DNA from: a virus
Length of the DNA stretch: 32,412 bases
Strand: one strand, 5' to 3'
Virus record (IMG/VR): IMGVR_UViG_3300025141_014043
Coordinates: 1-32,412 of that record
The notes beneath the pieces are model-generated. The model did no database searches. It saw nothing but the letters and a program-made list of their open reading frames with translations, and was not told the DNA's origin. A program made the position numbers and the translations under genes. Shown here one piece after another: positions 25,001-29,640 of the stretch; position 1 is the first letter of the stretch; each line of letters opens with the position of its first letter.

Positions 25001-25510
25001 TATTATATTTCCAACAGATAGCTTTCCAGACGTATCTATGTCATCCCCTTCAACCCTATTTAAGAGATAGTGGCCATCTTCTCCAGACGTCTTGTCTATG
25101 TGCTCATTTAGATTTGCAGAAGTTTCATCAAATTTTCCACTATTTGAATATTCCAAAAGCCCCAGGGACTGGGGTGATGAAGTTGACATCTCAACAAAGA
25201 CCTTATCAGCACCCTGTAGATCAGCAGCTGGTAGTGGGTCACCCTTGACAGCTGATATTGACTGTGTATTACCAGGGCTTACGTTGAAGATGACATCAGA
25301 ATTCTCCTGTATGAAGTTTAAATAATCTCCAAGAAGACCCTTCTCATGATCTGATAGATCTAAAAGCTCCTTCCCTGTGTTGGGGTCAACACCGAGATCA
25401 TCTCCGATGCTAGTCCTTCCGTCTGAATTGTCGTCTCTGACATTATAGGATATTGAATCAGCAGATAGTCCGATTGACGATAGAAAATCCCTTAGCGTTT
25501 CTCTGGCCAC
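22085..25510 (-). CDS. Large baseplate-like tail protein with Gly-rich hydrophobic segment
   Basis: This is an 1141-residue protein. Residues about 660-700 (YSDTKRDIGFSFTIAATSPE, then MWFKINKLTTMVYPQW) and 727-750 (PLIRLRIGDVIKGNYSKFNL) read like the tube-like or barrel segments of phage baseplate proteins. A Gly-rich hydrophobic stretch follows at about 767-827, with FGALPSMGSLGGLLGFSLDE and FFLQAFLVVFGSPMDLL. Near the end FTPIHDIPPGLDSEGFNRAP (about 1083-1102) is a compact conserved-looking motif. The N-terminal half has no recognisable domain. The start is GTG with AGAGGTGAT just upstream, and it overlaps the end of the 88-residue gene by 19 bases. The role (tube cap, wedge or hub) cannot be fixed from the sequence. 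Confidence 0.65.
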   Translation of the reverse strand: MARETLRDFLSSIGLSADSISYNVRDDNSDGRTSIGDDLGVDPNTGKELLDLSDHEKGLLGDYLNFIQENSDVIFNVSPGNTQSISAVKGDPLPAADLQGADKVFVEMSTSSPQSLGLLEYSNSGKFDETSANLNEHIDKTSGEDGHYLLNRVEGDDIDTSGKLSVGNIIEYPDTPSGIKQKRLINSSVEILRNNNRFSPAGDTSGDAFVERGKVDEQLESEPTLGVHREFGKYDKESYKTSLDSISRIGESLLSVAIGQDGEITRISQEDLRSRNAEGFPNTGGEEPESLRAGRGDFVTLTPTESSLSFGSMNSPERGMQFDSNNTKMLKSRAIVAIKSALKAIDTFKNTIIDVSGGPNSRVDTARGPFKMGENAHYIESSMSIIMNTILVPTKDSYENCVNEGARLMFNLDGNLSSINYGGINNSKIKKSKIVKTSPGFSLVLARSIILSVHTLSSAFSEQTSENEMSDSLKNIKKIGESRIVGILNTLAIIGDIKLGLDTAASGDFGFLKTKGGWDVDELPDGPATRVSKSRTSDGHNASALSMRTSATPSAYVLPVGVLRAVSRLGMSSTDSNPGRLLASTMGDKIYTGASISEGGRIPGSVVKRLEDILDSEYVPFYFHDIRTNEIISFHAFLDTLSDGYTANFSESKGYGRLDAVQTYSDTKRDIGFSFTIAATSPEDFDEMWFKINKLTTMVYPQWTKGDFVSSGDGDAKFIQPFSQIIGSSPLIRLRIGDVIKGNYSKFNLGRIFGAGEKDADLKPPKKGLFGALPSMGSLGGLLGFSLDEFFLQAFLVVFGSPMDLLQGGGLFGNVGFGGVPGALSAIEAGASKMLKNGFANPILQLVTRQYIDPDSDPSETVATKGNKSANASAALQSKITDNKIGYVSRGKTAMFGKKVFIKPSMARSYEVVGKDGESFSPPKKIRFNRPVKGIVVDRVSPSGHGTLYKVKIIDYNVPTGFFGATMRVTHSDIHHDPADSFARVMMPVLNPFGFAKAVLQDAANAGASMAGIDASSLGLLLSESRKFLGSDTNSITRGFESTRGRGLAGVMTSLKFDWISENTTWETDWGSRAPIFCKVNVGFTPIHDIPPGLDSEGFNRAPIYNVGNLSRTVAGDPYDDGGQSSRETYDFEHRKTFKND

Positions 25511-25758
25511 TTTATCACCTCTGTTCCAATATTACTACCTATATCGCTCTCACCTATGGCAGACCCGATATCATTAATTAGGTTGATCACATCTTCCTCA
25601 CTATTAAGCTTTGACCTAATTGACTCAATAGACCTGCTAAAGTTATCAGATATTTGCTTCATCTCAAGAAGCAAAACGCTTCTCTCTTCTTCAGTAAGAC
25701 CCTCTAGTAGCTTTTGAATATCTGGATCTCTCTCAATCTGTAAGAATATATCTTTCAT
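25492..25758 (-). CDS. Small acidic tail-module protein
   Basis: This 88-residue, mostly helical, Glu/Asp/Ile-rich protein has no recognised domain. Its ATG overlaps the tape-measure stop codon as ATGA, and its 3' end overlaps the next gene by 19 bases, so all three are translationally coupled. Heptad-like spacing (LLEGLTEEERSVLLLEMKQI at 17-36) suggests a coiled coil. Candidates are a tape-measure chaperone or a small baseplate assembly factor; nothing in the sequence decides between them. Confidence 0.7.
   Translation of the reverse strand: MKDIFLQIERDPDIQKLLEGLTEEERSVLLLEMKQISDNFSRSIESIRSKLNSEEDVINLINDIGSAIGESDIGSNIGTEVIKWPEKR
25516..25522 (-). promoter_or_regulatory. Ribosome binding site for the GTG start at 25510
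   Basis: The minus strand reads AGAGGTG, five bases, then GTG GCC AGA. The strong match supports GTG as the start of the 1141-residue protein, inside the 3' end of the 88-residue gene. Confidence 0.75.
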
Positions 25759-27974: not shown

Positions 27975-28205
27975 CTAAAAATTTCTCTTAGAGGAGCCAA
28001 GAAGATTTACTGAAGGCCCTGTGTCCTGTGTGATGGTGTTGGTGCGGGATTCATTTGTCTTTTTAATGTCATCTATAATCCTCTCTATAAACCATCTCCT
28101 GTATCTTATTGGCATTCTTCTGCACTCATCGTAGCCAAGCTTCATATGCTTGATGATCTGGTATATCTCCTCGAGGATTTCCGCTCTACTAGATGTCTCT
28201 AGGCC
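27975..28205 (-). CDS. Second-frame small ORF behind the tail-assembly gene, possible frameshift extension
   Basis: From 28205 to the TAG at 27975 the frame one base forward of the upstream gene is open for 76 residues. It reads GLETSSRAEILEEIYQIIKH, then MKLGYDECRRMPIRYRRWFI and ERIIDDIKKTNESR, with a polar tail ending in SKRNF. This is a good amphipathic helix pair with a G-Y-x-E-x(3)-MPI-x-x-R-x-W pattern that I associate with small tail-assembly chaperone-type proteins. No ATG, GTG or TTG occurs before the ATG at 28145, which has its only GAGGAG about 21 bases away, too far for normal use. The helix clearly begins before that ATG. The frame could therefore be reached by slippage at the T7 tract, giving a protein of about 356 residues. 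If it starts at 28145 the product has 56 residues. Confidence 0.6.
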   Translation of the reverse strand, partial: GLETSSRAEILEEIYQIIKHMKLGYDECRRMPIRYRRWFIERIIDDIKKTNESRTNTITQDTGPSVNLLGSSKRNF

Positions 28206-29046
28206 AAAAAAAGCTTGCGCCCATGGGAAGGCTCACCTCCGATCTCCCACCACAGAAATTGCACTTCATCTTACCTGCCAGCCTAATCCCAGGTTCATTA
28301 TAATCCATGTACGACCTGAGCTTTCTTGAATCAAGAGCAGGCATATTCTCTACAAACTTGTTAATCTTAGATCTGTCAGCTATTCCGTCTATTGATATTA
28401 TAGATGCCTTTAGTCGCTGAGTGATCTGATTGTCTATCATTCTATCTGGAAACAGCCGTCGAAGCTTTTCTGACTCTACAGAAATTTGATCTGCGTCTCG
28501 TCCTGTTAGAAATTTAAACTCTACAATCTTCTTAGAGACAGGCAGTGCAAATTTAAATGAATTATCTCCCTGAACAGTGGGGTCTATCCTGAGCCTGTTT
28601 ATGGGCATATCTGCAAGATTAAAATTATACGTGTCAGACTTTCCGCATAGCTTGCATGGTGCGGTGCACCTATATTCTGGACCATACCCGGTGATTCTTA
28701 TTGCTACCATAATTGCATTTCGATCTCCAACAAGCATGTCTTCTACGACTACATCCCCATCTGTAACACAAGACCTAATAAGCTCGTTTATTACTGTTCC
28801 ATTAGCTATTAGAGCACGAGAAGTTAGGATGTCCTCCTCTCTTGCTGTCATTGCCTTTATATTAATAACCTTTTTTCCATACAGCGGGCTAGAAGGATGG
28901 TAAACAGCACCCTCAGATGGAACTGGAACAGCCTCAACAGGTACCTCCCAGTTAAAGTCATCAACCATTACGTTTCTTGTCGGAACACTCTGATCGTGAC
29001 CTTCAGCACTAAATATTTTATTTTTATCCTGTCTTTTATTTGACAC
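28189..29046 (-). CDS. Zinc-ribbon tail/baseplate assembly protein (T4 gp26-like)
   Basis: The protein has 285 residues from GTG 29046. It contains KAMTAREEDILTSRALIANG (about 64-83), then LVGDRNAIMVAIRITGYGPE (about 105-124). Paired cysteines at 131/134 (CKLC) and 262/265 (CNFC) should form a zinc ribbon. The end is SLPMGASFFWPRDI. The overall pattern matches my memory of the T4 gp26-type baseplate hub assembly family, but no search was run. It lies between the tube and tape-measure genes, where tail assembly chaperones are expected. An in-frame TTG at 29058 also exists, but GGAG lies over it and is well spaced for the GTG. The gene ends at TAG 28189, just after a T7 run where a shift into the next frame would add 76 residues. 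Confidence 0.75.
   Translation of the reverse strand: MSNKRQDKNKIFSAEGHDQSVPTRNVMVDDFNWEVPVEAVPVPSEGAVYHPSSPLYGKKVINIKAMTAREEDILTSRALIANGTVINELIRSCVTDGDVVVEDMLVGDRNAIMVAIRITGYGPEYRCTAPCKLCGKSDTYNFNLADMPINRLRIDPTVQGDNSFKFALPVSKKIVEFKFLTGRDADQISVESEKLRRLFPDRMIDNQITQRLKASIISIDGIADRSKINKFVENMPALDSRKLRSYMDYNEPGIRLAGKMKCNFCGGRSEVSLPMGASFFWPRDI
28206..28212 (-). other. T7 tract, candidate programmed ribosomal frameshift site
   Basis: The zero frame reads AGC TTT TTT TGG CCT and stops ten bases later at TAG. A +1 slip lets the Phe tRNA re-pair TTT on TTT and continue GGC CTA GAG; a -2 slip leads to the same frame. Directly after the tract is a 5-bp hairpin (CTAGA-GACA-TCTAG, 28189-28202) that contains the stop codon, and a 10-bp palindrome TCCTCGAGGA at 28168-28177. 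A homopolymer sequencing error (true length six) would also join the frames. Confidence 0.5.
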
Positions 29047-29056: not shown

Positions 29057-29093
29057 AAAACTAATTAAAACTAAACAAATCTATAAGAATCGT

Positions 29094-29148: not shown

Positions 29149-29640
29149 TCAGTACTGAAGAACGCAGTTGTCAAATCTTATTGTAATATCAACAGCCATC
29201 ATTTCTGAGTCTGAGTTATAGTCAAGATCGCCAAACGCTGCCTTCTCTAAGAGACATCCCTTCATGTCCCAGAGCTCAACGACAGTTCCAACAGGATCTA
29301 GAAGCTTAAGCTGGCAATCACGCTTGTAAAAATCTGCATATCCTGCCCTACCTGACACTGACTCGTAGTGCGTCCTAATCCATTCCATCACCTGCTGAGC
29401 TCCTGATGGTGCAATTGGATCATGAAGAGAAACCTGAACAGTTTCAAATGTCTGCCTCCCTGCAAGATATCTAATTGAGTTAATGTATTTGATCTCTTCT
29501 GTGCTTATTGTGTACCCAGGTCTGCTTGCCGACTTTATCAAAAATGCATCAATTCCCTCAATAGCGAAAACCCATCGAAATTTTCTTTTGGGCTCAAACT
29601 TATTGGGAAGCATGTCGGTTACTGAGAGTGTTTCTGCCAT
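29149..29640 (-). CDS. Tail tube protein (T4 gp19-like)
   Basis: This 163-residue protein has the same length as T4 gp19. It has FRWVFAIEGIDAFLIKSASRPGY in two adjoining parts at about 21-43, YLAGRQTFETVQVSLHDPIA (58-77), a YADFYKRDCQLKLLDP stretch, and GTVVELWDMKGCLLEKAAFG (118-137), ending in VDITIRFDNC. This is the standard order of strands in myovirus tube proteins, which stack as hexameric rings inside the sheath and guide DNA. The ATG has AGGAG ten bases upstream. It directly follows the sheath gene and precedes a terminator, the expected order and a likely way to obtain high expression. Confidence 0.9.
   Translation of the reverse strand: MAETLSVTDMLPNKFEPKRKFRWVFAIEGIDAFLIKSASRPGYTISTEEIKYINSIRYLAGRQTFETVQVSLHDPIAPSGAQQVMEWIRTHYESVSGRAGYADFYKRDCQLKLLDPVGTVVELWDMKGCLLEKAAFGDLDYNSDSEMMAVDITIRFDNCVLQY

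Follow-up and report, generated by a model that had tools for sequence, protein, structure and literature searches.

The window analyzed here was the whole 32,412-nucleotide stretch of IMG/VR record IMGVR_UViG_3300025141_014043, which came from a virus of bacteria. Its minus strand carried a sheath-sized gene, a tail tube gene, a gp26-like gene, a reading frame without a start and a gene at the position of the tape measure (Table 1). No RNA families or tRNAs were found in the window.

Table 1. Features at the putative frameshift locus (positions in the window)
Feature	Position	Strand	Basis or remark
Tail tube protein (gp19-like), upstream neighbor	29149..29640	-	phrog_4542, 2e-27
gp26-like gene, putative short tail assembly chaperone (TAC-N)	28189..29046	-	285 aa from GTG 29046; PF12322, phrog_150
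Putative slip site TTT TTT TGG	28204..28212	-	sequence; P-site base pattern kept in 91 +1 relatives
0-frame tail of the short form, TGG CCT AGA GAC ATC TAG (WPRDI stop)	28189..28206	-	sequence
+1-frame extension, putative C-terminal domain of the long chaperone (TAC-NC), 76 codons	27975..28205	-	three predicted helices
Likely tape-measure protein, downstream neighbor, 728 aa	25755..27941	-	position and annotation in relatives

The gp26-like open reading frame (29058 to 28189) extended to a TTG at 29058; the likelier start was the GTG in Table 1, with GGAG six bases upstream. Its product scored 61 bits against PF12322 (the T4_baseplate, or gp26, family), above the curated cut-off of 24.5, which placed it in this family. 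A search of NCBIfam gave no match. The 728-aa gene started with a TTG preceded by GGAG. Its product matched no family in Pfam-type and PHROG profile searches, and a tape-measure annotation was present at the equivalent position in phages immuto, SP-15 and LIS04. It is likely to be the tape-measure protein, judged by position and these annotations. With this identity taken from the annotated relatives, the gp26-like gene lay between the tail tube and tape-measure genes, as expected of a tail chaperone pair. An 88-aa gene (25492-25758) shared four bases with the end of the gene at the tape-measure position. Its product weakly resembled ribosome recycling factor (E 0.002, short of the cut-off), probably by a helical coincidence.

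The gp26-like gene ended with GCA AGC TTT TTT TGG CCT AGA GAC ATC TAG. An earlier note on this DNA had described a run into seven T residues, and the run was indeed present at 28212-28206. The stop had been placed ten bases after it; the TAG (28191-28189) actually begins 14 bases after. The +1 frame ran from 28211 to 27975, starting with FFGLETSSRAEILEEIYQIIKHMKLGYDECRRMPIRYRRWF. After T28206 was skipped, it read GGC CTA GAG ACA TCT AGT ... and was open for the 76 codons claimed in the note, up to the TAG at 27977-27975. The claim that its first 20 codons contained no usable start also held: the first ATG (28145) was 20 codons past the slip and had no ribosome site. When the region was shuffled 5000 times with its dinucleotides kept, a +1 frame of such length survived 21 times. 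The -1 frame at the site (C TTT TTT T) closed after about four codons, and the X XXY YYZ pattern of -1 shifts was not present. Among the 10,346 codons of the genes in the window, TTTTTTTGG or TTTCTTTGG occurred in frame a single time, at the slip site.

The following mechanism is proposed. Most ribosomes would read TTT TTT TGG CCT ... to the TAG and make the short, gp26-like chaperone of about 285 aa. In a fraction of them, tRNA-Phe on the second TTT (28209-28207) in the P site, with the 0-frame TGG in the A site, would slip forward by one base, from TTT to TTT, skipping T28206. This slip had been predicted to need no mismatch, and the re-pairing at TTT T would be perfect. GGC would be read next, and 76 more codons would give a 356-aa long form, the junction of which would read ...GASFFGLETSSR... 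We infer that the ribosome itself shifts, how efficiently it does so and what the two forms do.

A first scan recovered four loci with identities of 100, 66, 40 and 32%, and the arrangement was identical in all four. The T tract was identical in a second assembly from the viral collection. The +1 arrangement was found in cultured phages of Microcystis (Mel-JY01), Flavobacterium (immuto), Bacillus (SP-15), Listeria (LIS04) and Streptococcus (GXN1), and also in Streptomyces BRock, pSt2308 and LuckySocke, and Rhodothermus RM378. An alignment scan of IMG/VR gave at least 592 relatives; nearly all of the 80 matches listed had TTT TTT TGG CCT or TTT CTT TGG CCT, with the conserved FFGL... domain in the +1 frame. 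Further relatives were contigs binned with Halobacteriovorax, Methylococcaceae and Flavobacteriales. The phase could be called in 180 loci, with the domain in the +1 frame in 107 and the -1 frame in 73. One locus (L182) was +1 by open-frame length and -1 on direct reading, and was taken as -1. For statistics, the +1 loci were clustered at 80% identity to 91 non-redundant relatives, which share ancestry, so that the counts below are not phylogenetically independent and overstate the evidence.

The sites of these 91 relatives were strongly biased. TTT TTT TGG was present in 66 and TTT CTT TGG in 10. The P-site codon was TTT in about 80 and CTT in 10 (two mis-located sites were corrected by eye). 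The sole exception, phage LR756508, had TTT CTA, at which the slip would be from TTT to TTC. TTC was never found in the P site (0 of 91), whereas TTC made up 263 of the 898 other Phe codons of those genes (29%, against 71% TTT). The ten Leu cases were all CTT, which makes up 26% of Leu codons in those genes. The A-site codon was Trp in 79 of the 91; in the rest of these genes, Trp was encoded by 1.5 per 1000 codons. If one base is skipped to make the long protein, the protein sequence does not constrain the third base of the P-site codon, as TTT and TTC both encode Phe, and the fixation of this base as T therefore points to the slip itself. The 0-frame stop came 3-6 codons past the P-site codon in 90 of the 91. 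The note had suggested asking whether the T tract and the overlap were conserved in homologues, and with 91 distinct +1 relatives the answer was clearly positive.

Substitutions in the +1 frame followed the order of codon positions 3 > 1 > 2 (10425, 6028 and 3611). The first 15 codons showed the same order (2812, 1366 and 974 at positions 3, 1 and 2). This pattern indicated that the +1 frame is under coding constraint, including these first 15 codons, which in many relatives are beyond the reach of a usual start. In one relative (L116), an in-frame stop interrupted gp26 upstream, and the +1 site and domain downstream looked intact; this may be an error or decay.

Taken from the sequence comparisons, a conserved programmed +1 frameshift very probably produces the long tail-assembly chaperone. 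Short and long forms sharing an N-terminus, with the 3' part in a shifted frame, are what a chaperone pair of this kind would have, and both the sequence and its conservation agreed with this.

The second frame could instead be a separate overlapping gene with its own start, initiated independently or by coupling. This is how annotators have treated it: the records of the cultured phages contained no shift annotation, and the second frame was called a separate hypothetical gene or left unannotated. Moreover, 43 of the 91 relatives had some ATG, GTG or TTG in the +1 frame ahead of the slip, and in those a separate product is possible. However, the other 48 had none there; their first start was 6-75 codons beyond the slip or absent, and one relative (L081) had no usual start at all in the frame. 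In the window, initiation at ATG 28145 would lose the conserved GLxxxxRxxILEEIY helix. The coding constraint on the first 15 codons and the fixed T of the P-site codon also argue against a separate gene, which we consider improbable.

Transcriptional slippage was considered next. Polymerase slippage on runs such as the seven T residues here is established, and mRNAs one T shorter would be read normally into the extension. However, the ten relatives with TTT CTT TGG had the +1 phase without a long run, as had those with TTC TTT TGG, TTC TTT CGT and CTG TTT CGC. These sites cannot be explained by slippage of the transcript, and this explanation appears very unlikely.

A -2 shift would lead to the same final frame as +1, and is known in the chaperone of phage Mu. 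The earlier note had left the direction as "+1 (or -2)". At TTC TTT TGG and TTT CTT TGG, a tRNA moved back by two bases would be mismatched at the middle or the first base of the codon. After a move of +1, the pairing at TTT T, TTT C and CTT T is perfect or of the RF2 type. The +1 direction was favored because sites such as TTC TTT TGG and TTT CTT TGG re-pair well at +1 but not at -2, and the -2 alternative carries even less weight than slippage of the transcript. An artifact of sequencing or assembly on the homopolymer of seven, or a decayed gene, has practically no credibility, as the arrangement recurred in a second assembly, in complete genomes of cultured phages and across about 90 diverged lineages.

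Known +1 sites also matched those of the relatives, which speaks for +1 and against -2. RF2 (prfB) shifts +1 at CUU_U, shared by TTT CTT TGG. Influenza PA-X shifts +1 at UUU_CGU (PMC3498833), shared by TTC TTT CGT of phage GXN1. In both, a P-site YUU re-pairs one base forward, as proposed here, and the RF2-like order of YUU followed by U, which would let the P-site codon re-pair, was found at the present site. Unlike those systems, the present sites had neither a stop codon in the A site nor a Shine-Dalgarno-like stimulator.

Candidate stimulators were searched for around the site. A Shine-Dalgarno-like element just upstream was present in 1 of the 91 relatives (background 1.9%), which did not make an RF2-like stimulator. 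The small hairpin noticed earlier behind the tract was no more stable than shuffles: the z values for the 40-60 bases after the site were positive in the window (+0.6 and +1.3). Over the 91 relatives the mean downstream z was -0.4 to -0.6, near the background inside the gene, and the hairpin was dropped as a stimulator. A rare A-site codon was also rejected, for TGG was common enough in the window (9 per 1000); the CGN variants are rare. The 60 bases upstream of the site folded slightly more stably in the +1 class (mean z -0.96, against about -0.3 elsewhere in the gene). It is possible that they hold an element.

The short form was homologous to the T4 gp26/gp51 family (PF12322), and the long form aligned along most of gp51. 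In an alignment of the joined +1 and -1 products with T4 gp51 (226 columns, E 1.8e-9), the FF junction fell opposite VFKLLVNPDEI of gp51. The C-terminal domain alone matched gp51 weakly (E 0.0001-0.002), with a score of 25.9 against a shuffled-column maximum of 14.9. T4 had two PF12322 copies (gp26 and gp51); each of the 11 other records with a match, several of which may be incomplete, had one. This single copy number, the conserved site and the conserved +1 coding domain were computed here. T4 uses two genes and no shift, whereas the window virus would use one gene and a +1 shift. In the Pfam search, the only hit of the extension was SWIB/MDM2, dismissed at a sub-cut-off E of 0.02.

An AlphaFold model of the joined window protein had a mean pLDDT of 87 (mostly 84-92 in the extension domain), with extension helices at 291-305, 309-314 and 317-343. 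With residues 34-129, the top of 995 solved chains was the HK97 tail assembly chaperone 2ob9_B (Z 5.4, a moderate value, over 82 residues). Foldseek on the chaperone model gave E 1.4, and a joined-profile sequence search of solved structures gave no match. The gp26-like gene is most likely a tail assembly chaperone with short and long forms TAC-N and TAC-NC. Its position and the analogy with lambda G/GT had been pointed out in the earlier note, and the T4 homology bears this out, with the moderate HK97 fold match pointing the same way. The long form would be the counterpart of gp51, and by analogy with G/GT would connect the tail tube with the complex of tape measure and chaperone.

The gp26-like protein contained two CxxC pairs, CKLC and CNFC. 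Weak structure matches of residues 127-280 included the solved zinc-ribbon chains ZPR1, NrdR and Tim15. Cysteines were lost in several relatives (L004, L005, L006 and L008), and the metal site therefore looks dispensable.

Shifts of -1 in tail chaperones are textbook knowledge, usually at X XXY YYZ, with -2 and +1 cases. Lambda G/GT and its kin resemble the window gene in position, short/long pair and presumed function, but shift -1 on a backward slippery site. A -1 shift at poly-T sites is reported for the Vandenendeviridae chaperone (PMC12846349), and a work cited there is given for such sites in T4-like phages. According to PMC10885494, which cites Vladimirov et al. 2022, some T4-like phages carry short and long gene copies instead of shifting. 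Forward sites are known for the chaperone of haloarchaeal HSTV-2 ("very likely +1"; PMC5009743) and in the SEA-PHAGES set (PMC10885494); direction and gene kind are as here. The earlier note had presented a +1 shift in a gene of the gp26 type as new to its author; +1 is known in other tail chaperones. Within the gp26/gp51 family, no earlier report was found in a literature search that excluded Vladimirov et al. 2022 (Virology 566:9) and the HSTV-2 papers.

The +1 shift would account for the long chaperone in T4-like phages that lack a gp51 gene, and would join the two-gene arrangement of T4 to the lambda-type frameshift. The public phage genomes checked would be mis-annotated at this locus.

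The jumbo phages RaK2, 121Q, PA5oct, Munch, Atu_ph07 and SCTP-2, and many contigs, share the gene family and the FF site with the window. Their gp26, however, ended with T TTT TTC, and the domain was in the -1 frame. The -1 and +1 domains were homologous (98.5% probability, E 1.7e-15). On a gp26 tree, built without the trait columns as a quick tree with weak deep branches, the phase required 5 changes, against 32 in shuffles (4 with L182 counted as -1, the tree test not being repeated). Two -1 groups were nested inside the +1 clade. L039 and L106 (AAT TTT TTC TGG, a textbook -1 heptamer) were sister to the +1 locus L037 (SH-aLRT 94). L107, L110 and L091 (AAT TTC TTC or TTC TTT TGG, not such a heptamer) formed the other (SH-aLRT 100).

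We lean towards the reading that T4-like phages have solved the homologous chaperone gene in three ways. A large, mostly marine lineage would shift +1 at YUU_UGG without a stimulator, jumbo phages would shift -1 at U_UUU_UUC, and T4 has two genes. At least two reversals to -1 would have taken place within the +1 lineage, all at the same two Phe codons. If true, these phages would provide a natural series for the evolution of frameshift direction. The +1 sites, which come from about 90 lineages with several codon variants and have no obvious stimulator, form a large natural collection. It suits the question of what makes a ribosome slip forward or back, because some -1 relatives differ by a single synonymous base (TTT TTT TGG versus TTT TTC TGG).

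In L107, L108, L110 and L091, the -1-phase site T TTC TTC TGG or T TTC TTT TGG was followed by a conserved CC(T/C)TCCCGGTA. In phage OLIVR5 (2184-2324), a 46-aa "baseplate hub assembly catalyst" was annotated 3' of gp26. It looks like a remnant, begun at an internal ATG, of the -1-phase domain that follows T TTT TTC.
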